Assembly (NCBI RefSeq): GCF_010686755.1
Contig: NZ_JAAGXA010000006.1
Coordinates: 186,001-250,000, forward strand
DNA length: 64,000 nt
Source: Nocardioides zeae
Lineage (GTDB): Bacteria; Actinomycetota; Actinomycetes; Propionibacteriales; Nocardioidaceae
Direction: 5' to 3'
In this document: in pieces, positions 40,659 to 48,355 of the stretch
Numbering within the stretch: position 1 is the stretch's first letter
Layout of the letters: each line of letters opens with the position of its first letter
Program-made: the position numbers and the translations under genes
Notes under the pieces: generated by a model
Told to the model about the DNA's origin: nothing
The model's database searches: none
What the model saw: the letters and a program-made list of their open reading frames with translations, nothing else

Positions 40659-41369
40659 ATGCACGTGCCTGACGGGTTTCTCGACGCACCGACGTCGATC
40701 GCGACCGGCGTGGTCGCCGCCGCCGGCATCGGTCTCGCGCTCCGCGGCGCCCGCCGCGAGCTGGACGACCGCACCGCGCCCATGGTGGGCCTCGTGGCGG
40801 CGTTCGTGTTCGCCGCGCAGATGGTGAACTTCCCGGTGGGTGCCGGCACGAGCGGCCACCTCCTCGGCGGTGCGCTGGCCGCCGTGCTCGTCGGACCGTG
40901 GTCGGCCGTGCTGTGCCTGAGCACGGTGCTGCTCGTCCAGGCGCTGCTCATGGCGGACGGCGGGATCACGGCCCTCGGCACCAACGTCACGCTCATGGGG
41001 ATCGTCGGCGTGGGGGCGGGCTACCTCGTCTTCGTCGCGGTCCGCGCGGTCCTGCCGCGGCGCCCGGCGATGGTCGTGCCGGCGGCAGCCGTCGGCGCGT
41101 TCGTCAGCGTGCCCGCCGCGGCGGCCGTGTTCACCCTGCTCTTCGCCGTCGGCGGCCAGGCCTCCGTCGGCATCGGGGACGTCGCCGTCGCCATGCTGGG
41201 CTGGCACACGGTCATCGGCCTCGGGGAGGCCGCGGTCACCGCGCTCGTCGTCAGCGCCGTCGTCGCGACGCGCCCCGACCTCGTCCACGGCGCCCGTCCG
41301 CTCCTCGCGGCCTCGACGCTCGAGATCCGTCGCCCCGGGGCACCGGCCGGGGCGGAGGTGGCGGGATGA
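40659..41369 (+). CDS. cbiM: energy-coupling metal transporter subunit CbiM
   Basis: 236 residues, about seven helices. CbiM is the substrate-binding component of a nickel or cobalt ECF importer. It begins MHVPDGFLDAPTS, the invariant N-terminus whose amino group and His2 bind the metal. NFPVGAGTSGHLLGGALAAV and GGITALGTNVTLMG are further family blocks. ATG 40659 follows gaggagg. First gene of cbiM-cbiN-cbiQ-cbiO. The nickel-type box upstream and absence of a cobalamin riboswitch favour nickel. Confidence 0.93.
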   Translation: MHVPDGFLDAPTSIATGVVAAAGIGLALRGARRELDDRTAPMVGLVAAFVFAAQMVNFPVGAGTSGHLLGGALAAVLVGPWSAVLCLSTVLLVQALLMADGGITALGTNVTLMGIVGVGAGYLVFVAVRAVLPRRPAMVVPAAAVGAFVSVPAAAAVFTLLFAVGGQASVGIGDVAVAMLGWHTVIGLGEAAVTALVVSAVVATRPDLVHGARPLLAASTLEIRRPGAPAGAEVAG

Positions 41370-41713
41370 GCACCGCGACGGACACCCCGACCTCGCCCGC
41401 CCGTCCGCGGCTGTCCCGCGGCCGCTTCTTCGCCGCTGTCCTCGTGGTGACGCTGCTCGTGGCCGGCGGTCTCAGCTACCTGGCGTCGGCGCACCCCGAC
41501 GGCCTCGAGCACGTGGCGGCCACGACCGGGTTCGGCGACACCGCCCGCGACTCCGCGACGTCGGGCAGCCCGTTCGCCGACTACGGCACGGCCGGCGTCG
41601 ACCACGCCTGGCTCAGCGGGGCCATCGCGGGCATCGTCGGCGTCGCGGTCGTCCTCGTGCTGGCGGGTGGGCTCGCCCTCGTCGTACGCCGCCGCGGCTC
41701 CGCGCAGGACTGA
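41366..41713 (+). CDS. PDGLE-domain (CbiN-like) subunit
   Basis: 115 residues with two membrane helices (FFAAVLVVTLLVAGGLSYLA and IAGIVGVAVVLVLAGGLALV). After the first helix comes SAHPDGLEHVAATTGF, the PDGLE signature of the small subunit that sits with CbiM and is needed for metal loading. The external loop is short and acidic. The ATG overlaps the cbiM stop in ATGA. Confidence 0.88.
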   Translation: MSTATDTPTSPARPRLSRGRFFAAVLVVTLLVAGGLSYLASAHPDGLEHVAATTGFGDTARDSATSGSPFADYGTAGVDHAWLSGAIAGIVGVAVVLVLAGGLALVVRRRGSAQD

Positions 41714-41717
41714 CGCC

Positions 41718-42431
41718 GTGGGAGCGGGACACGGTCGACCGGGCGGGGGACTGACGCTCCACCACGCCGGCGCCAGCCGGGTCCACCGGGCACCGGCCCA
41801 CCTCAAGGTGCTGGCGCTGCTGGCCTTCATGCTCCTCGTGGTGGCGATCCCGGGGGACGCGGGCTGGGCACCGGAGGCGTACGGCGTCGCCGCGGCCCTC
41901 GTCGTCGCGACGGTGCTCGTCGCGCGGGTGCCCCTGCTGTTCGTGCTGCGGCGGATGGTGGTCGAGATCCCGTTCGTGGTCTTCGCGCTCCTCGTCCCCT
42001 TCGTCGCCCACGGCCCGCGCACGACGCTTCCGGTGCTCGGGCTGGAGGTCTCGGCCCCGGGCCTCGCCGAAGCCGGTCACCTGCTGGCGACGGGCACGAT
42101 CGGTGTCGCCGCGGCTCTCACCCTCGCGGCCACGACGACCGCCCGCGACCTCCTCGCGGGCCTCGCGCGGCTGCGCGTCCCCGCTCTCCTGCTCGAGATC
42201 ATGGGCTTCATGCTGCGCTACGCCGAGGTCGTGACGGGGGAGTGGAGCCGCATGCTCGTGGCCCTGCGGTCCCGCGGCTGCGAGCCCCGCTCGCCCCGCC
42301 ACTGGCCGGCCCTCGGCCGGGCCCTCGGGGCCCTGTTCGTGCGCTCCTACGAGCGCGGTGAGCGGGTGCACCTCGCGATGCTCTCCCGTGGGTACGTCGG
42401 GGCTCGCCCCGCGCGGGAGGGGGCGCCGTGA
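41718..42431 (+). CDS. cbiQ: ECF transporter transmembrane subunit CbiQ
   Basis: 237 residues, about five helices. CbiQ is the T component that couples ATP hydrolysis to metal entry. AHLKVLALLAFMLLVVAIPG at the start and the coupling motifs VALRSRGCEPRSPR and AMLSRGYVG (Ala-Arg-Gly-type helices that dock on the ATPase) are visible. GTG 41718 lies 4 nt after the upstream stop. The next gene overlaps by GTGA. Confidence 0.9.
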   Translation: MGAGHGRPGGGLTLHHAGASRVHRAPAHLKVLALLAFMLLVVAIPGDAGWAPEAYGVAAALVVATVLVARVPLLFVLRRMVVEIPFVVFALLVPFVAHGPRTTLPVLGLEVSAPGLAEAGHLLATGTIGVAAALTLAATTTARDLLAGLARLRVPALLLEIMGFMLRYAEVVTGEWSRMLVALRSRGCEPRSPRHWPALGRALGALFVRSYERGERVHLAMLSRGYVGARPAREGAP

Positions 42432-43189
42432 GCGACCCTGTCCTCGCCCTCGACGGCGTCGCGTTCGCCTACCCCGACGGCCACCAGGCGCTCTTCGGCG
42501 TCGACCTGCACGTGGAGCGTGGCGAGCGGGTCGCCCTGCTCGGGCCCAACGGCGCCGGCAAGACGACCCTCGTGCTCCACCTCAACGGCATCCTCAGCCC
42601 CGGCGCCGGCACGGTCCGGGTGGCGGGGCTCGACGTCGGTCGTCGCACCCTCGCCGAGGTGCGCCGCCGCGTCGGGGTCGTCTTCCAGGACCCCGACGAC
42701 CAGCTGTTCATGGGCACCGTGCGCGACGACGTCGCCTTCGGGCCCCGCAACGCCGGGGTGCGCGGCGCCGAGCTGGACCGCCGCGTGGAGGCAGCGTTGG
42801 AGCAGGTCGGGATGGCGGCGTACGCCGACCGGCCGCCCCACCACCTGTCCTTCGGGCAGCGTCGCCGGGTCGCCATCGCGACGGTGCTGGTGATGGAGCC
42901 GGAGCTGCTCGTGCTCGACGAGCCCTCGTCCAACCTGGACCCCGCCTCGCGCCGGGAGCTCGCCGAGATCCTGCTCGGCCTCGACGTGACCATGCTGATG
43001 GTCACCCACGACCTGCCCTACGCGTTGCAGCTCTGTCCGCGGTCGGTCGTGCTCTCCGACGGGGTCGTCGTGGCGGACGCCGCGACGTACGACGTGCTCA
43101 CCGACGAGGCGACCATGGCCGCGCACCGCCTGGAGCTGCCGTTCGGCTTCGATCCCCGCACGGCGGGTCGCCCGGGCGCGCGTTGGTAA
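42428..43189 (+). CDS. cbiO: ECF transporter ATPase CbiO
   Basis: 253 residues. ATPase of the metal importer. Walker A LLGPNGAGKTTLVLHLNG, Q-loop VVFQDPDDQLFMGTV with the DDQLF typical of ECF ATPases, signature LSFGQRRRVAIATVL, Walker B LLVLDEPSSNLDP and switch VTHDLPYAL. Only one ATPase gene is present, so it acts as a homodimer as in other Cbi systems. GTG 42428 overlaps cbiQ by 4 bp. Confidence 0.94.
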   Translation: MSDPVLALDGVAFAYPDGHQALFGVDLHVERGERVALLGPNGAGKTTLVLHLNGILSPGAGTVRVAGLDVGRRTLAEVRRRVGVVFQDPDDQLFMGTVRDDVAFGPRNAGVRGAELDRRVEAALEQVGMAAYADRPPHHLSFGQRRRVAIATVLVMEPELLVLDEPSSNLDPASRRELAEILLGLDVTMLMVTHDLPYALQLCPRSVVLSDGVVVADAATYDVLTDEATMAAHRLELPFGFDPRTAGRPGARW

Positions 43190-43243: not shown

Positions 43244-43492
43244 GTGAGCAACGACCTCAACTCCCTCGAGGGCGAGATCGAGCAGACGCGGGAGCGTCTC
43301 GCCTCGACCATCGACGAGCTGCTGCACCGCACGAACCCGAAGACGATCGCCCGCAAGGAGGCGAACGCCGTCAAGGGCTACTTCGTCGACGAGGCCAGCG
43401 GTGCGCCCCGCACCGACAACATCCTCAAGGTCGTCGGCGGGGTCGCGGGCGTGGTCGCGGTGGTCGTGGTCGTCCGCAAGCTCGTCAAGTGA
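43244..43492 (+). CDS. DUF3618 membrane protein
   Basis: 82 residues. LEGEIEQTRERLASTIDELL at the N-terminus is the DUF3618 signature, followed by the ARKEANAVKGYFVDE linker and one C-terminal helix (ILKVVGGVAGVVAVVVVVRK). The family is of unknown function and in mycobacteria one member adjoins bcp. The GTG start is used; it overlaps the following GroES-like gene in GTGA. Confidence 0.85.
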   Translation: MSNDLNSLEGEIEQTRERLASTIDELLHRTNPKTIARKEANAVKGYFVDEASGAPRTDNILKVVGGVAGVVAVVVVVRKLVK

Positions 43493-43830
43493 GCTCCGCC
43501 GGCGGCGCCGGTGACGGCACGCCGATCCGCATGCTCCACGACCGGCTCCTCGTCGAGCTGGACCGTGAGGCGGGGGAGCGGCGCTCGTCGGGCGGCATCG
43601 TGATCCCGGCGACCGCCGCCATGGGGGCGAAGCGGCTGGCCTGGTCGCGCGTGGTCGGTGTCGGTCCCCAGGTGCGCTCGGTGGAGGTCGAGGACCGGGT
43701 GCTCTTCGACCCCGACGAGCGTGCCGAGGTCGAGGTGCACGGCGACACCTACGTGGTGCTGCGCGAGCGCGACGTGCACGCGGTGGCGGCGGGCCGGCTC
43801 GGCGACTCCGCCACCGGCCTCTACCTCTGA
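43489..43830 (+). CDS. GroES-like chaperonin-fold protein
   Basis: 113 residues. MLHDRLLVELDREAGERRSSGGIVIPATA and the later DRVLFDPDERAEVEVHGDTY match the Cpn10 beta-barrel, with a shortened mobile loop. It has no groEL beside it and an extra C-terminal tail, so it is a paralog rather than the main GroES. Its function is unknown. The GTG start overlaps the DUF3618 stop by 4 bp. It ends convergent with the tyrosine kinase gene. Confidence 0.8.
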   Translation: MSSAGGAGDGTPIRMLHDRLLVELDREAGERRSSGGIVIPATAAMGAKRLAWSRVVGVGPQVRSVEVEDRVLFDPDERAEVEVHGDTYVVLRERDVHAVAAGRLGDSATGLYL

Positions 43831-43852
43831 GGGTCCCGCGCCGACGCCGCCG

Positions 43853-45337
43853 TCAGCTGCGGCGCCACCACCGGCTCGCCCTGCCGTCGGGCCGGGACTC
43901 CCGTGCCTTCCGGCTGCGGACCTTCGCGCCGTCCTTGCCGCCGTCCGTGGCGGGCTCCTCGCGGTAGTAGCCGCCGTAGTAGTAGCCCCCGGCCGAGTTG
44001 CGCCGCGGCACGCGGTTGAAGACCACGCCCAGCACGCGGCCGCGCACCGCCGTGAGGTTGCCCAGCGACGTCTCGAGCTCGGTGTCGACGGTGCTGCCGT
44101 AGGACACCACGACGATCGCGCCGTCCGCGACGGTCGAGAGCACGGCGGCGTCGGTGACGGGCAGCAGGGGCGGGGCGTCGAGCACCACCAGCGCCGACTC
44201 CGCCATCTGCTTGAGCAGGTTGCGCATCGACTGCGAGCCGAGCATCTCGCTCGGGTTGGGGGGCACGCCGCCGGCGGCGAGCACCTGGAACCCGGGCACG
44301 TCGGGGTGGTCCTGGAGCACGTCGTCGAGCTCGGCGCGCCCGATGAGCACGTCCGTGAGGCCCGCGCCCTCGACGAGACCGAGGGTGGGCGCGACGACGG
44401 GACGACGCAGGTCGGCGTCGACGAGGATGACCGGCTGGCCCGACGTCGCGATGGCGGCGGCGAGGTTGGTGGACACCGTCGACTTGCCGTCCGACTGCCG
44501 GGAGCTGGTGACGACGATGATGCGCGGCGGGTTGTCGATGTCCATGTACGACAGGTTGGTGCGTAGCTTGCGGAAGGCCTCGCCCGCGATGAAGGCAGAG
44601 TTCTGCTCCGTCTCCGTCACCGCCAGGTCGGCCGCCTCCCCCCGGGCGTGCTCGAGCGCCTTGGTGGCCGGGATGGCGCCGATGACGGCCACGCCGAACT
44701 TCTTCTCGATCTCCTGCGCCGTGCGGAGGCGACGGTCGAGCTGGGAGCGGACCGCGGCGTACGCGACGCCGAGGAGGAGGCCCAGGACGAGGCCGATGCC
44801 GCCGTCGCGGGCCGGCACCGGGGAGACGGGGGTGCTGGGCAGAGCAGCGCCCTCGACCGGACGCACGACGAGACCGGTGCTCGCGGCGACGCCGTCCGGG
44901 TTCTGGATCTCGTCGATCTCGTCGGCCAGCGCCTGCACCCACGCGTCCGCGAGGTCCCGGGCCGCCTGCGGCTCACCGGCCTGGGCCGTGATGCGGATGA
45001 GGGAGGTGTCGACGGGCTGCTCGACCGAGATGCGGCCGATGAGCGCCTGCGGCGACACGTCCAGCCCGAGGGTCGTGATGGCCCGCTCCGCGACCGGGCG
45101 GCTGGTGGCCACCTCGACGAACGACTTCGCCTGCGACTTCGCCAGCGAGTCGGCCACCGACTGCCCCGCGATCGAGGGATCGGGGTTGGCGGAGGTGACG
45201 AGCCCGGTCGCGTTCGCGGCGTACACCGCCGGCTGGCTCAGCGAGTAGGCCAGGGCCAGGACGAGGCACGCGACGACGATGACCCCGGCGCCGAGCCAGT
45301 GGTTGCGCAGCGCACGCAGGTAGTCGCTGAGGGACAT
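43853..45337 (-). CDS. polysaccharide co-polymerase/tyrosine autokinase (BY-kinase)
   Basis: 494 residues. An N-terminal Wzz-type domain lies between two membrane helices (near 16-34 and 180-197). The cytoplasmic kinase has Walker A VTSSRQSDGKSTVSTN (about 276-291), Walker A' VILVDADLRRP (about 303-313) and a tyrosine cluster near the C-terminus, GGYYYGGYYREE (about 450-461), the autophosphorylation site. Such kinases control length and export of capsule or exopolysaccharide. A low-molecular-weight phosphatase is divergent from it, the usual counterpart, but no glycosyltransferase genes are here. Confidence 0.93.
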   Translation of the reverse strand: MSLSDYLRALRNHWLGAGVIVVACLVLALAYSLSQPAVYAANATGLVTSANPDPSIAGQSVADSLAKSQAKSFVEVATSRPVAERAITTLGLDVSPQALIGRISVEQPVDTSLIRITAQAGEPQAARDLADAWVQALADEIDEIQNPDGVAASTGLVVRPVEGAALPSTPVSPVPARDGGIGLVLGLLLGVAYAAVRSQLDRRLRTAQEIEKKFGVAVIGAIPATKALEHARGEAADLAVTETEQNSAFIAGEAFRKLRTNLSYMDIDNPPRIIVVTSSRQSDGKSTVSTNLAAAIATSGQPVILVDADLRRPVVAPTLGLVEGAGLTDVLIGRAELDDVLQDHPDVPGFQVLAAGGVPPNPSEMLGSQSMRNLLKQMAESALVVLDAPPLLPVTDAAVLSTVADGAIVVVSYGSTVDTELETSLGNLTAVRGRVLGVVFNRVPRRNSAGGYYYGGYYREEPATDGGKDGAKVRSRKARESRPDGRASRWWRRS

Positions 45338-45388
45338 GGGGTCCTTCCATCGGGAGGGTCTCGCACCTCACGGAACCGGGACTTCGGC

Positions 45389-45417
45389 TTCGTGACCCCA
45401 CCGTCTCGTGGGAGCCT
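45389..45417 (+). promoter_or_regulatory. predicted leaderless promoter of the phosphatase gene
   Basis: TTCGTG (45389-45394), 17 nt, GAGCCT (45412-45417), then 6 nt to GTG 45424. No ribosome site. Confidence 0.4.
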
Positions 45418-45423
45418 GGGCCC

Positions 45424-46005
45424 GTGAGGATCCTCATCGTATGCGTCGGCAACGTGTGTCGTTCGCCTCTTGGTGAACGTCTGCTCCGACTCGCGCTGGC
45501 CGACGAGGTCGCCGCCGGTCTCGTGGAGGTGACGAGCGCCGGCACGGGAGCGCTGGAGGGTCGGGCCATGGAGCCGGACGCCGCCGCCGAGCTCGAGCGC
45601 CTCGGCGGGTCGGCCGAGGGGTTCGTCGCCCGCTCGGTCACGGACGCGATGCTGGTGGGGTCCGACCTCGTGCTGACGGCGACCACGGAGGTGCGCAAGC
45701 AGGTCGTGGGCATCACCCCCGCGGTGCTGCACCGCACCTTCACGCTCAAGGAGCTCGCACTCGTCGTCGAGCAGGAGGCGCAGCACGTGCAGGTGCTGCC
45801 CGACGTGCGGCGTGCGATGCGCGCCCTCTCGGCCCGCCGCGGCGCGGTCGCGCGGAACGACCTCGACGTGCCGGACCCGATGGGACGGGACGCGGCGCGC
45901 CACCGCGAGGCGGCCGACCAGATCGCCGCGGCCGTCGACGTCCTCGCTCCGCTCGTGGCGGTGCTCGTCGAGGAGCAGCTCGCCGCCCAGGCAGGGGAGG
46001 CGTGA
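45424..46005 (+). CDS. low-molecular-weight protein tyrosine phosphatase
   Basis: 193 residues. The catalytic loop is VCVGNVCRSP with Cys7 and Arg13 (Cx5R), and the general acid lies in VPDPMGRD. It probably dephosphorylates the tyrosine cluster of the BY-kinase, whose gene is divergent 86 bp away. It is longer than the ~150-residue norm by a mid-region (FTLKELALVVEQEAQHVQVL) and a C-terminal helix. GTG 45424 is the likely leaderless start. Confidence 0.93.
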   Translation: MRILIVCVGNVCRSPLGERLLRLALADEVAAGLVEVTSAGTGALEGRAMEPDAAAELERLGGSAEGFVARSVTDAMLVGSDLVLTATTEVRKQVVGITPAVLHRTFTLKELALVVEQEAQHVQVLPDVRRAMRALSARRGAVARNDLDVPDPMGRDAARHREAADQIAAAVDVLAPLVAVLVEEQLAAQAGEA

Positions 46006-46025
46006 GGGCTGCGACCCGGCGCGCC

Positions 46026-46301
46026 TCAGGTCAGCAGCACCAGCCCGCGCTCGGCCAGCTCGCCGAGGAAGGGCAGCACGTCGCCGCGCACCTGGGCGGC
46101 GGCCGCGCCGTACTCGGTGGCCAGGAGGAGCACCAGTGCGCCGAGCGTCATCGGCCGCTCGAGGCTCTCCCACACCGACACGCCGACGGGGTTGAGCTCG
46201 AGGTACTCGCCGCGCTCGTCGAGCAGCACCATCGTGTCCCCGGTGCTGGTGCCGAGGGCCGACGGGTTGCGGGTGAGCGTGGTCGTGTCGTCGATGCGCA
46301 C
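46026..46301 (-). CDS. PqqD family protein
   Basis: 91 residues. The PqqD fold is seen in TMVLLDERGEYLELNPVGVS then VWESLERPMTLGALVLLL and FLGELAERGLVLL. In peptide natural products PqqD domains bind the leader of a precursor peptide. It is divergent from an HPr-kinase-like gene only 14 bp away and has a second PqqD-like partner beyond that. GTG 46301 is the first in-frame start that gives the family N-terminus. There is no ribosome site, so its expression is unclear. No precursor peptide is visible. Confidence 0.8.
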   Translation of the reverse strand: MRIDDTTTLTRNPSALGTSTGDTMVLLDERGEYLELNPVGVSVWESLERPMTLGALVLLLATEYGAAAAQVRGDVLPFLGELAERGLVLLT

Positions 46302-46315
46302 GGGGTGATGGTGCC

Positions 46316-47161
46316 ATGACCGCGGAGCCCGGCGAGGGCACGCTCGTCCCCGTGCACGGCCTGGGTGCGGTCGTGACGCTGCGGCTCCGCGGCACGGAGC
46401 GGGCCGCGCTGGTCGACACGGTCCGTGCGGCCTGGGAGCGGTGCCTCGTGCCGGCGCCCGCACCCGGCGGCGCCGGTGACGTCGTCGACGCCGGCACGCT
46501 CGACGTCGTGCTCGACGCGCCCGACGCCGATCCCGCCGACCGGCACGCGGCCGTCGCGGCGGGTGCGGTGGCCGGCACGTCGCTCGCCGACGTGATGCAC
46601 CAGCTGTCGCCGGCGGTCACCCTCCGCCTCATCGAGAGCCGCGCGGGGGCGCTCATGATGCTCCACGCCTGCGCCCTCGCCCACCCGGCGACGGGTCGCA
46701 CGGCGGTGCTCGTGGCACCGTCGGGCACGGGCAAGACGACGCTCGCCCGCACCCTCGGCACGACGTTCGGCTACCTGACCGACGAGACCGCCGGCATCGA
46801 CGCGCGCGGCCGGTTGCTGCCCTACCCCAAGCCGCTCTCCGTGATCCCGGTGCCCGGGGAGCCGATCAAGGACCAGCTCGCGCCCGCAGCCTGCGGGCTC
46901 GCGCCGGCGCCGGACGGTCCCCGGCTCGCTGCGGTCGTCCTGCTCGAGCGCGACGCGGCGGGTCCCGACGAGCCGGAGGTCGTGCCCGAGCCCACGGTCA
47001 CCGCGCTGGCGACCCTGGCGGGCCAGACGTCGTACCTCACCCGCATCGAACGGCCCCTCCACGCCCTGGCCGCGACGATCGAGCAGGGCGGCGGGCTGCG
47101 GCGCGTGCGCTACCGCGAGTCCGCCAGCCTCGCCCCCCTCCTCGAGGAGTGGCTGTCGTGA
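46316..47161 (+). CDS. HPr kinase-like P-loop protein
   Basis: 281 residues. The C-terminal half has the HprK-type nucleotide fold: HACALAHP and VLVAPSGTGKTTLARTLG (Walker A about 134-141), then YLTDETAGID. The N-terminal half lacks the HprK regulatory domain. HprK-related kinases of this type occur with PqqD-like proteins in peptide and exopolysaccharide clusters, where the substrate is unknown or a peptide. The gene overlaps the next PqqD-like gene in GTGA and is divergent from another PqqD. ATG 46316 has no ribosome site. Confidence 0.75.
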   Translation: MTAEPGEGTLVPVHGLGAVVTLRLRGTERAALVDTVRAAWERCLVPAPAPGGAGDVVDAGTLDVVLDAPDADPADRHAAVAAGAVAGTSLADVMHQLSPAVTLRLIESRAGALMMLHACALAHPATGRTAVLVAPSGTGKTTLARTLGTTFGYLTDETAGIDARGRLLPYPKPLSVIPVPGEPIKDQLAPAACGLAPAPDGPRLAAVVLLERDAAGPDEPEVVPEPTVTALATLAGQTSYLTRIERPLHALAATIEQGGGLRRVRYRESASLAPLLEEWLS

Positions 47162-47469
47162 GCGGGCTGCGGGTGCGGCGGGCGCCGGTGGCGGACTGGT
47201 ACGTCGAGGGCGAGGACTCCGCCGTGATGGTGGGCGCCACCGTCGTCGTGCTGTCGGCGCTCGCCACGGCGGTGCTCGAGATCCTCGACGCCGAGCGGAC
47301 CGCCGAGGACGGCTGGGTCGCCGCCACCGTCGTCACCGCCGGCCTGGTGGAGCGCTTCGGGGAGCCCGAGGGGCTCGACGTGCACGCCACGACCGCCGGC
47401 GTCCTGGCCGACCTCGCCGAGCAGCGGGTGGTGGAGACGGAGCAGCGGCCGGGACCGGCCGCGGGTTGA
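47158..47469 (+). CDS. small PqqD-like protein
   Basis: 103 residues. [40 protein letters not shown] and [16 protein letters not shown] follow the PqqD pattern of a strand, three helices and a final helix ending in a hydrophobic residue. The assignment is from pattern, not a named family. The GTG start overlaps the HprK-like stop by 4 bp, so the two proteins are made together. No peptide precursor is adjacent. Confidence 0.6.
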
Positions 47470-47491
47470 CCCCGGTGGGACGCTGGAGGTC

Positions 47492-48355
47492 ATGAGCGAC
47501 CACGTCTCCGCAGCAGCGTCCGGCCACTTCCGCATCGGGGGCGAGCTCCCCGTCGTCCGCCTGGGCTACGGCGCCATGCAGATCACCGGCGAGGGGGTCT
47601 GGGGCTGGCCCGACGACCGGGAGGGCGCGATCGCCGTGCTCCGCCGGGCCGTCGAGCTGGGCGTGACCTTCATCGACACCGCCGACTCCTACGGCCCGAC
47701 CGTCTCCGAGGAGCTCATCGCCGAGGCTCTGCGGCCCTACGCCGACGACCTCGTCATCGCCACCAAGGCCGGCCTGGTGCGCACCGGCCCGGCGCAGTGG
47801 GTGCCGGTCGGCCACCCGGCGTACCTGCGCCAGCAGGCGGAGCTCAGCCTCCGCCGCCTCGGCGTCGAGGCCATCGACCTGTTCCAGCTCCACCGCGTGG
47901 ACCCGGCCTTCCCGCTCGAGGACCAGGTGGGCGAGCTGAAGAAGCTGCAGGAGGAGGGCAAGGTGCGCCACATCGGGCTCTCCGAGGTCTCCCTCGGTCA
48001 GCTGCAGGAGGCCCGCGAGGTCGCCGAGATCGCGACGGTGCAGAACCTCTTCAACCTGGTGAAGCGCGACGCGGAGCCGCTGCTCGACTACTGCGACGCG
48101 GAGGGCATCGGGTTCATCCCGTGGTTCCCGCTCGCGACCGGCGAGCTCGCCGGGGCCGACGGCCCGCTGGCGCAGTCCTCCCGCGACCACGGGGCCGAGC
48201 CGTCGCAGCTGGCCCTCGCCTGGCTGCTGCGCCGCTCGCCCGTCGTGCTGCCGATCCCCGGCACGAAGACCGTGGCGCACCTCGAGACGAACGTCGCGGC
48301 AGCGGCCATCGAGCTGAGCGACGAGGAGTACGCGGCCCTCGACGCCGTGCGCTGA
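47492..48355 (+). CDS. aldo/keto reductase
   Basis: 287 residues, TIM-barrel oxidoreductase using NADPH. The tetrad is intact: Asp62 and Tyr67 in [12 protein letters not shown], Lys92 in VIATKAGLV and His134 in [27 protein letters not shown] binds the cofactor. ATG 47492 follows tggaggt closely. Substrate unknown. The luciferase-like gene follows 18 nt later and may share its transcript. Confidence 0.93.

Follow-up and report, generated by a model that had tools for sequence, protein, structure and literature searches.

The window, a stretch of 64,000 nucleotides from Nocardioides zeae (positions 186001–250000 of contig NZ_JAAGXA010000006.1, here C30, in a genome of 4.4 Mb and 33 contigs), carries a trio of genes in which two small PqqD-type proteins flank an HprK-like P-loop kinase. 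A family of exported-looking proteins with one common N-terminal signal of the Tat (twin-arginine translocation) type was found almost only together with this kinase, which suggests that its members are tagged inside the cell before export. The signal family and the trio are very probably partners, and the trio is considered, with moderate confidence, to be the core of an intracellular protein-tagging system for the exported proteins of the family.

The common N-terminus, with the consensus SRR..V..AAW.vPAv.vA.AAPAFA, is borne near many kinase loci by proteins whose bodies look dissimilar by eye. It is called Tat-like because of the SRR consensus, which is established knowledge, and not on the output of a predictor. 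Within about 10 kb on each side of the kinase genes (1.06 Mb of loci in all), a first regular expression gave 15 matches, all 15 of them at most 4.3 kb from a kinase gene. A second one gave 26 matches near the kinase and 4 far from it in 20-kb kinase loci, vs none in 246 kb of rpoB loci; 3 of the near matches and all 4 of the far ones look spurious by eye. A profile of 40 residues of the proteins found with the first expression (A4) was run on the 195 genomes of the kinase survey, with up to 38 candidates scored per genome, so that counts per genome are lower bounds. The source genome encodes at least 11 signal proteins (E ≤ 5.1e-5), on contigs C4, C11, C14, C16, C23, C28 and C29 and none on C30; as all of them lie off the trio contig, linkage does not explain the co-occurrence. 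At least 14 were found in each of the genomes G058, G062 and G085. Pfam searches with 10 of the 11 proteins of the source genome gave one DUF5122 protein, one RCC1 propeller and eight proteins unmatched at E ≤ 0.01. In these 10 proteins the signal itself was covered by no Pfam family at this threshold and by no NCBIfam model over its cut-off (the best was MelC1, with 15.6 vs 120 bits), and no common C-terminal motif was seen by eye in the family. No paper describing the signal family or its link with PqqD proteins was found in the literature searched, which covered few subscription journals.

The kinase was detected at E < 1e-9 in 47 of the 195 genomes (36 of the same genus, the source genome included, and 11 of a second family), and nine further genomes gave weak matches only. 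At E ≤ 1e-5, profile A4, which was trained on kinase-adjacent sequences and thus favours near relatives of the training genomes (the kinase-free genomes of the same genus being about equally near), matched 47 of the 47 kinase genomes vs 1 of the 148 others (G064). The association was also followed on a 100-genome rpoB tree with 40 kinase genomes and 60 kinase-free ones drawn from the 148 (45 of the genus and 15 of the second family); the kinase genomes G023, G024, G108, G157 and G173, with rpoB coordinates not listed, and G048 and G093, with no rpoB match, were left out. Counting kinase genomes with and without the trait and then kinase-free genomes with and without it, the signal was distributed as 40/0/1/59. 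The kinase was gained or lost at least 18 times on this tree, and the signal followed it in every one of the 16 independent pairs with good branch support (sign test, p = 3e-5), or in 15.5 of 16 pairs on average when weak A4 matches were counted too. A nucleotidyltransferase of family PF14907 (E ≤ 1e-3, with some matches under the family cut-off) gave 40/0/17/43. The signal of G064, the only tree genome with a strong signal and no detected kinase, lies at G064:C1:170577-170687, and a recent loss of the kinase could account for it.

The association was also seen at a greater distance, in a sample of 296 genomes of the class. A strong kinase (>100 bits) was found in 13 of them, 12 of which have the signal at E ≤ 1e-4; in the thirteenth, G241, the kinase adjoins a SRRTVNLGAAWSVPVV protein that was missed by the profile. 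Among the other 283 genomes the signal was detected in 8, three of which (G227, G314 and G419) contain a weaker kinase homologue 0.2–0.6 kb away; in the five remaining, the W-P motif described below was matched by regular expression only in G424. When all kinase matches at E ≤ 1e-6 were considered, many of them weak, 15 of the 38 genomes had the signal at E ≤ 1e-4. Since distant signals score poorly in the A4 profile, the DNA was inspected directly. A signal protein was found within about 1.5 kb of the kinase in 13 of 17 distant loci (L120–L136), such as GLSRRQVLRRGVAVGTAVWTVPTVTAITLTPANAASPSG, several with an LPNTG-like end, and in 2 of the 13 strong loci (L107–L119). A PqqD-like protein, judged by eye, adjoins the kinase in all nine distant loci read gene by gene, several of which also have a phosphatase-like or glycosyltransferase-like gene. 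In L121, L124, L129, L131 and L155 the signal protein is rich in proline and has a PSG motif a short way past the signal, and it ends in an LPNTG-like wall anchor in L121, L129, L131 and L155, the L124 protein being cut.

Besides the Tat-like arginine pair, the motif W-x-x-P-x-[VI] is kept in the signals of these families. Of 44 extracted segments, 41 have Trp at the key position, where the search pattern allowed any residue; the Pro was fixed by the pattern, and the residue two places after it, which was free, is Val or Ile in 41 segments, Leu in 1 and another residue in 2. Two of the three segments without Trp look spurious, and the third is that of L046. In a control with signal peptides chosen by a crude rule, W..P.[VIL] was present in 4 of 146 Sec-like and 1 of the 15 remaining Tat-like N-termini, the single Tat-like match (L037) being itself a signal-family member adjoining a kinase; the control is weak, since no more than 4 family members, 3 of them with the motif, were picked up by the rule. 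Actinobacterial lasso leaders carry the motif YxxPxL, of which YxxP and the conserved Leu fit a hydrophobic cleft of the PqqD protein TfuB1, as described in PMC6784204. The spacing of W-x-x-P-x-[VI] is identical. From this spacing and the resemblance of the PqqD families to TbiB1 and TfuB1, recognition of the signal peptide by PqqD was proposed, which would be followed by phosphorylation, perhaps phospho-glycosylation, before Tat export. Whether the PqqD proteins read the W-P motif in the signal is judged evenly balanced from the sequences.

The trio and its two neighbours lie in the order BY-kinase (bacterial tyrosine kinase, −), phosphatase (+), PqqD A (−), kinase (+) and PqqD B (+), as follows:

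46026–46301, minus strand: PqqD-type protein A (P0001), a RiPP recognition element (RRE) protein of 91 aa with a GTG start, nearest to lasso B1 proteins (RiPP, ribosomally synthesized and post-translationally modified peptide)
46316–47161, plus strand: HprK-like P-loop kinase, 281 aa
47158–47469, plus strand: PqqD-type protein B (P0003), GTG start; the list of open reading frames gave 47149
43853–45337, minus strand: Wzz–BY-kinase fusion (polysaccharide chain length/tyrosine autokinase), with TIGR01007 at 151 bits and PF02706 at 27.7 bits, both above cut-off
45424–46005, plus strand: low-molecular-weight tyrosine phosphatase, PF01451 at 72 bits

The start of PqqD B is likely the GTG at 47158 and not 47149, because it gives a 4-bp overlap with the kinase stop (GTGA) and matches the start in the relative L034. 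The coordinates, families and folds agree with the trio named in the initial annotation, as do the BY-kinase and phosphatase beside it and the gap of 14 bp (46302–46315) between the divergent starts of PqqD A and the kinase.

P0001 exceeds the cut-off of PF05402 (58.3 vs 23.4 bits) and stays below those of the NCBIfam lasso PqqD models NF033530 (41.6 vs 70 bits) and NF033536 (38.2 vs 80 bits); the profile of its family, A3, gave TbiB1 at E = 2e-13 and TfuB1 at E = 4e-7. P0003 is more divergent in sequence, with no Pfam family at E ≤ 1, and hence below the PF05402 cut-off, and no relevant NCBIfam family. PF05402 was matched at E ≤ 0.1 by 17 of the 23 members of its family alignment (hmmscan), and its profile aligned with that of the P0001 family at 97% and E = 1e-10 (hhalign). 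Against solved structures, the P0003 profile gave 40S ribosomal protein S3 first (E = 9e-4, a chance-looking match in which no single stretch passed), followed by weak matches to the lasso PqqD 9x90 (E = 0.002) and TbiB1 (E = 0.006). The AlphaFold model of P0003, made from 4 sequences, reached a pLDDT (predicted local distance difference test) of 85 and superposed on leader-bound TbiB1 with Z 9.7 (82–85 residues, root-mean-square deviation (rmsd) 2.1–2.3) and on TfuB1 with Z 8.6; Foldseek alone gave nothing at E ≤ 0.001 for this model, with TbiB1 at E = 0.045. P0003 is thus PqqD-like, by family profile and model, with a predicted winged-helix RRE fold resembling the lasso leader-binding protein TbiB1, and the P0001 and P0003 families both resemble TbiB1 and TfuB1.

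No confident Pfam family was found for the kinase. The Walker A stretch APSGTGKT and the pair D156–E157, presumably the catalytic acidic pair, are kept in the window protein. In an alignment of 30 sequences, G139, T142 and D156 are invariant and G137, K140 and E157 near-invariant, and an LHA histidine, Y-x-[TS]-D-E and a K-P-L-S motif are also conserved. The model of the kinase (pLDDT 89, from 5 sequences) matched the phosphoenolpyruvate carboxykinase (PEPCK) fold with Z 13.8 over 255 aligned residues (rmsd 5.0). The 50 best fold matches are PEPCK entries, with HPr kinase structures not among them, and the 60 matches listed for the sequence profile against solved structures are mainly P-loop stretches of ATP-binding cassette (ABC) and other ATPases. 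The PEPCK fold is common to HPr kinase. The middle protein is therefore of a PEPCK/HPr-kinase-type fold by prediction, with intact ATP-site motifs from which ATP binding is predicted. Loss of ATP binding, or small proteins with no predicted PqqD-like fold, had been named in the initial annotation as grounds for abandoning its claim, and neither was observed at the level of motifs and models.

Gene neighbourhoods were counted for 54 kinase copies, the window included. A PqqD gene lies directly downstream of the kinase on the same strand in 50 of them, so that the trio arrangement is not due to chance, and within 5 kb in 52, the two misses (L067 and L087) being cut by the edge. Two PqqD genes lie within 5 kb in 36 copies, and kinase and PqqD are joined in one open frame in 24. 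An enzyme partner outside the view of the initial annotation is a PF14907-type nucleotidyltransferase, encoded within 5 kb of the kinase in 39 of the 54 copies and, by frame count alone, in one frame with PqqD in six loci. Because the PqqD and nucleotidyltransferase models were both iterated inside this small set, their weak members lean on neighbourhood; representative members are supported independently by PF05402 and PF14907. The source genome has a single PF14907 gene, on another contig than the trio (C5:67101–68219, minus strand; domain match at G000:C5:67485-68126, 133.8 bits vs a cut-off of 31.2). It is accompanied there (L075) by a second BY-kinase and, as read by eye, by RmlA/RmlB/RmlCD-like, acyltransferase-like and cysN/cysD-like genes, and this is likely the polysaccharide cluster of the genome. 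In the close relatives G107, G058 and G095 the PF14907 gene is likewise away from the trio. The PF14907-type gene of G023 (L048, 6656–7702) extends across several frames, perhaps because it is broken or misassembled.

HPr-kinase homologues are reported to phosphorylate a Ser of lasso peptides, and a nucleotidyltransferase to add a hexose to that phosphate (PMC8498205). A comparable sequence of events may be envisaged here. The PqqD proteins, as recognition elements, would bind W-x-x-P-x-[VI] inside the Tat-like signal peptide and, while the protein is still in the cytoplasm, pass it on to the HprK-like kinase for phosphorylation, most likely at a Ser or Thr among the first post-signal residues. 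By analogy with the enzyme of pseudomycoidin, a sugar may next be attached to the phosphate group by the PF14907 nucleotidyltransferase, and the tagged protein would then be exported and associate with the surface polysaccharide assembled under the neighbouring BY-kinase and phosphatase. The general form of this proposal, in which RiPP-type recognition elements read the motif in Tat signals and direct kinase and nucleotidyltransferase to phosphorylate and glycosylate whole exported proteins in the cytoplasm, perhaps as an attachment point or primer for polysaccharide, is put forward tentatively. The mark may be a phosphate or phospho-sugar close to the N-terminus of the mature protein, though this is doubtful.

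What the sequences show are the genes, the predicted folds, the fusions, the neighbourhood and the near-perfect co-occurrence with the signal family, whereas motif binding, phosphorylation and its site, the sugar and the polymer link are deduced from them. Several observations weigh against the tagging proposal. To be read, a Trp-Pro motif within the hydrophobic stretch of a signal would need to be accessible in the cytoplasm. The Trp count is partly conditioned, because many loci were fetched with a profile containing Trp; for the 13 distant loci, which were located through the kinase, Trp was demanded by the regular expression. Ser or Thr occurs among the first four post-signal residues in 41 of the 44 segments, a count with no control, and the acceptor residue is a guess from composition. 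The window locus has neither an adjacent nucleotidyltransferase nor a signal protein, and the second regular expression gave in the window two matches, both spurious-looking. The signal occurs with no detected kinase in G064 and in the class genome G424, and 15 more kinase-free genomes gave weak A4 matches (E = 5.7e-5 to 0.0099). The nucleotidyltransferase is present in 17 of the 60 kinase-free tree genomes, and none was noticed by eye next to the distant kinase loci that were read; no signal protein lies within reach in 4 of the 17 distant loci (L126, L128, L130 and L133). PF05402 is also loosely coupled to the kinase (32/8/11/49), because proteins of the PqqD B type often score too low in this model.

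The alternative that survives best, although unlikely, is that a component of export, whether the BY-kinase, the phosphatase or another, is under the control of the kinase and the PqqD proteins, the signal proteins being merely polymer-associated and carried by the same genomes. The initial annotation had suggested regulatory phosphorylation for a surface polymer, and this reading retains some support from a BY-kinase within 5 kb in 42 of the 54 kinase copies and a phosphatase in 19, by PqqD and phosphatase in one open frame in L054 and L058 (in L058 the phosphatase is certain, with 59 bits, and the PqqD part weak, with 14.8 bits), and by glycosyltransferase- or rml-like genes around several relatives' loci, as read by eye. 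Such control leaves the two PqqD proteins and the coupled signal family unexplained, as it needs neither two leader-binding proteins nor a common W-x-x-P-x-[VI] in signal peptides, and the coupling of the signal to the kinase (40/0/1/59) is very tight. The C-terminal Ser of the window BY-kinase, an idea for a kinase target taken from the last residue of that protein, was rejected, since only 9 of 50 BY-kinase frames, counted by eye, end in Ser and that of the close relative L034 does not.

A role of PqqD and kinase as a chaperone and quality gate for Tat export, with the kinase acting on the signal or on itself and leaving no lasting mark on the mature protein, draws on the same co-occurrence and motif evidence as the tagging proposal and is rated as quite improbable. 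Redox-enzyme maturation proteins serve such a function in Tat export, and since Tat substrates fold in the cytoplasm, a helper that binds the signal is plausible. Left unexplained on these terms is the PF14907 nucleotidyltransferase, which accompanies the kinase in all 40 kinase genomes of the tree (E ≤ 1e-3).

A RiPP pathway, in which kinase, PqqD and nucleotidyltransferase would act on a small peptide that escaped annotation, in the manner of the lasso clusters where the three occur together (PMC8498205 and PMC7533575), is very improbable, given that the PF13471 protease was not found in the source genome (E ≤ 0.001) and was present in only 2 of the 47 kinase genomes (G035 and G077, where it shares the contig of the kinase at distances of about 47 and 255 kb), and that the 16 small open reading frames with a ribosome-binding-site-like stretch in 43300–47700 all lie, by eye, in or against called genes. 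A lasso or other RiPP cluster was thus rejected for this genome, with no PF13471 and no small precursor frame in that interval. The initial annotation had also considered a peptide system with its substrate elsewhere; candidates scattered over the genome were indeed found, but they are exported proteins with a common Tat-like signal and not small peptides. Its report that precursor, radical SAM and cyclase genes are lacking holds for the 15 genes scanned around the trio, the radical SAM and cyclase families not having been searched genome-wide.

A peptide of 41–52 aa, secreted-looking and ending in NVWCC or NIWCC, adjoins the kinase in four loci (L041, 10709–10834; L043, 9150–9275; L071, 10600–10725; L077, 9340–9498) and could be cited in favour of a RiPP pathway, but it was seen in one group of loci only. 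On its other side lies an XRE-TPR-like regulator in L041, L043 and L077 (TPR_12 and HTH_3 by Pfam in L043), and the two look like a peptide–regulator pair, possibly of quorum type.

Among known systems, the trio shares parts with the lasso family and with the HPr-rel-A system, but it is not a member of the former and stays below the two cut-offs of the latter. HPr-rel-A (kinase TIGR04352, PqqD TIGR04353) has the same broad kinase family with a neighbouring PqqD. TIGR04352 is the sole NCBIfam model that matched the window kinase at E ≤ 0.01 and was matched at this threshold by 30 of 30 kinase-family sequences, more than any other NCBIfam model, but the two kinases with scores shown reach only 27 (window) and 20.3 bits vs a cut-off of 200. 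The TIGR04353 cut-off of 35 bits was likewise not reached by P0001 (16.2), by P0003 (no match) or by two PqqD B relatives that match only this model in NCBIfam (23.8 and 25.3). The window system further differs in its two PqqD proteins, BY-kinase, phosphatase and coupled Tat-like signal family; no description of the substrate of HPr-rel-A was found in the literature searched. The lasso tailoring module B1-K-N of paeninodin and pseudomycoidin has a PqqD leader-binding protein, an HPr-kinase homologue and a nucleotidyltransferase (PMC8498205), and its recognition motif has the same aromatic-x-x-P-x-aliphatic spacing (PMC6784204). In contrast, the source genome lacks PF13471, the B2 transglutaminase-type protease, and the motif here lies in the signal peptides of whole exported proteins. 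No precursor with a YxxPxL leader was seen by eye among the small open reading frames in 43300–47700, and no asparagine-synthetase-like cyclase among the 10 flanking proteins scanned, the genome not having been searched for one. In the exosortase/PEP-CTERM system, many dissimilar exported proteins per genome carry a common short signal and co-occur with one locus linked to surface polysaccharide. The present signal differs in being N-terminal and Tat-like, and the locus in encoding a kinase and peptide-binding proteins.

With these results, uncharacterised HprK/PqqD loci gain concrete candidate substrates and a testable recognition motif. If the tagging proposal is true, the leader-recognition principle of RiPPs extends to Tat-exported proteins, and a single locus serves up to 14 candidate substrates per genome (a lower bound) in several actinobacterial families. 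It would also reveal a way for cells to mark surface proteins ahead of export, and provide a link of these proteins with surface polysaccharide.

The trio region is flanked by a DUF3618/Cpn10 pair on one side and an aldo-keto reductase on the other. The ten neighbours scanned are CbiM, CbiQ, ABC ATPase, DUF3618, Cpn10, aldo-keto reductase, luciferase-like, tRNA-editing, DsbA-like and exonuclease proteins, and the BY-kinase is therefore the only polysaccharide gene seen there. The genes of the cobalt-type uptake transporter (CbiM, CbiQ and ATPase) lie upstream of the trio locus at 40659–43189 of the window. The Cpn10-like protein is encoded at 43489–43830, after the DUF3618 gene, with no GroEL-like protein among the neighbours scanned. 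By eye, the DUF3618/Cpn10 pair also adjoins the trio locus in L034, L035 and L036.

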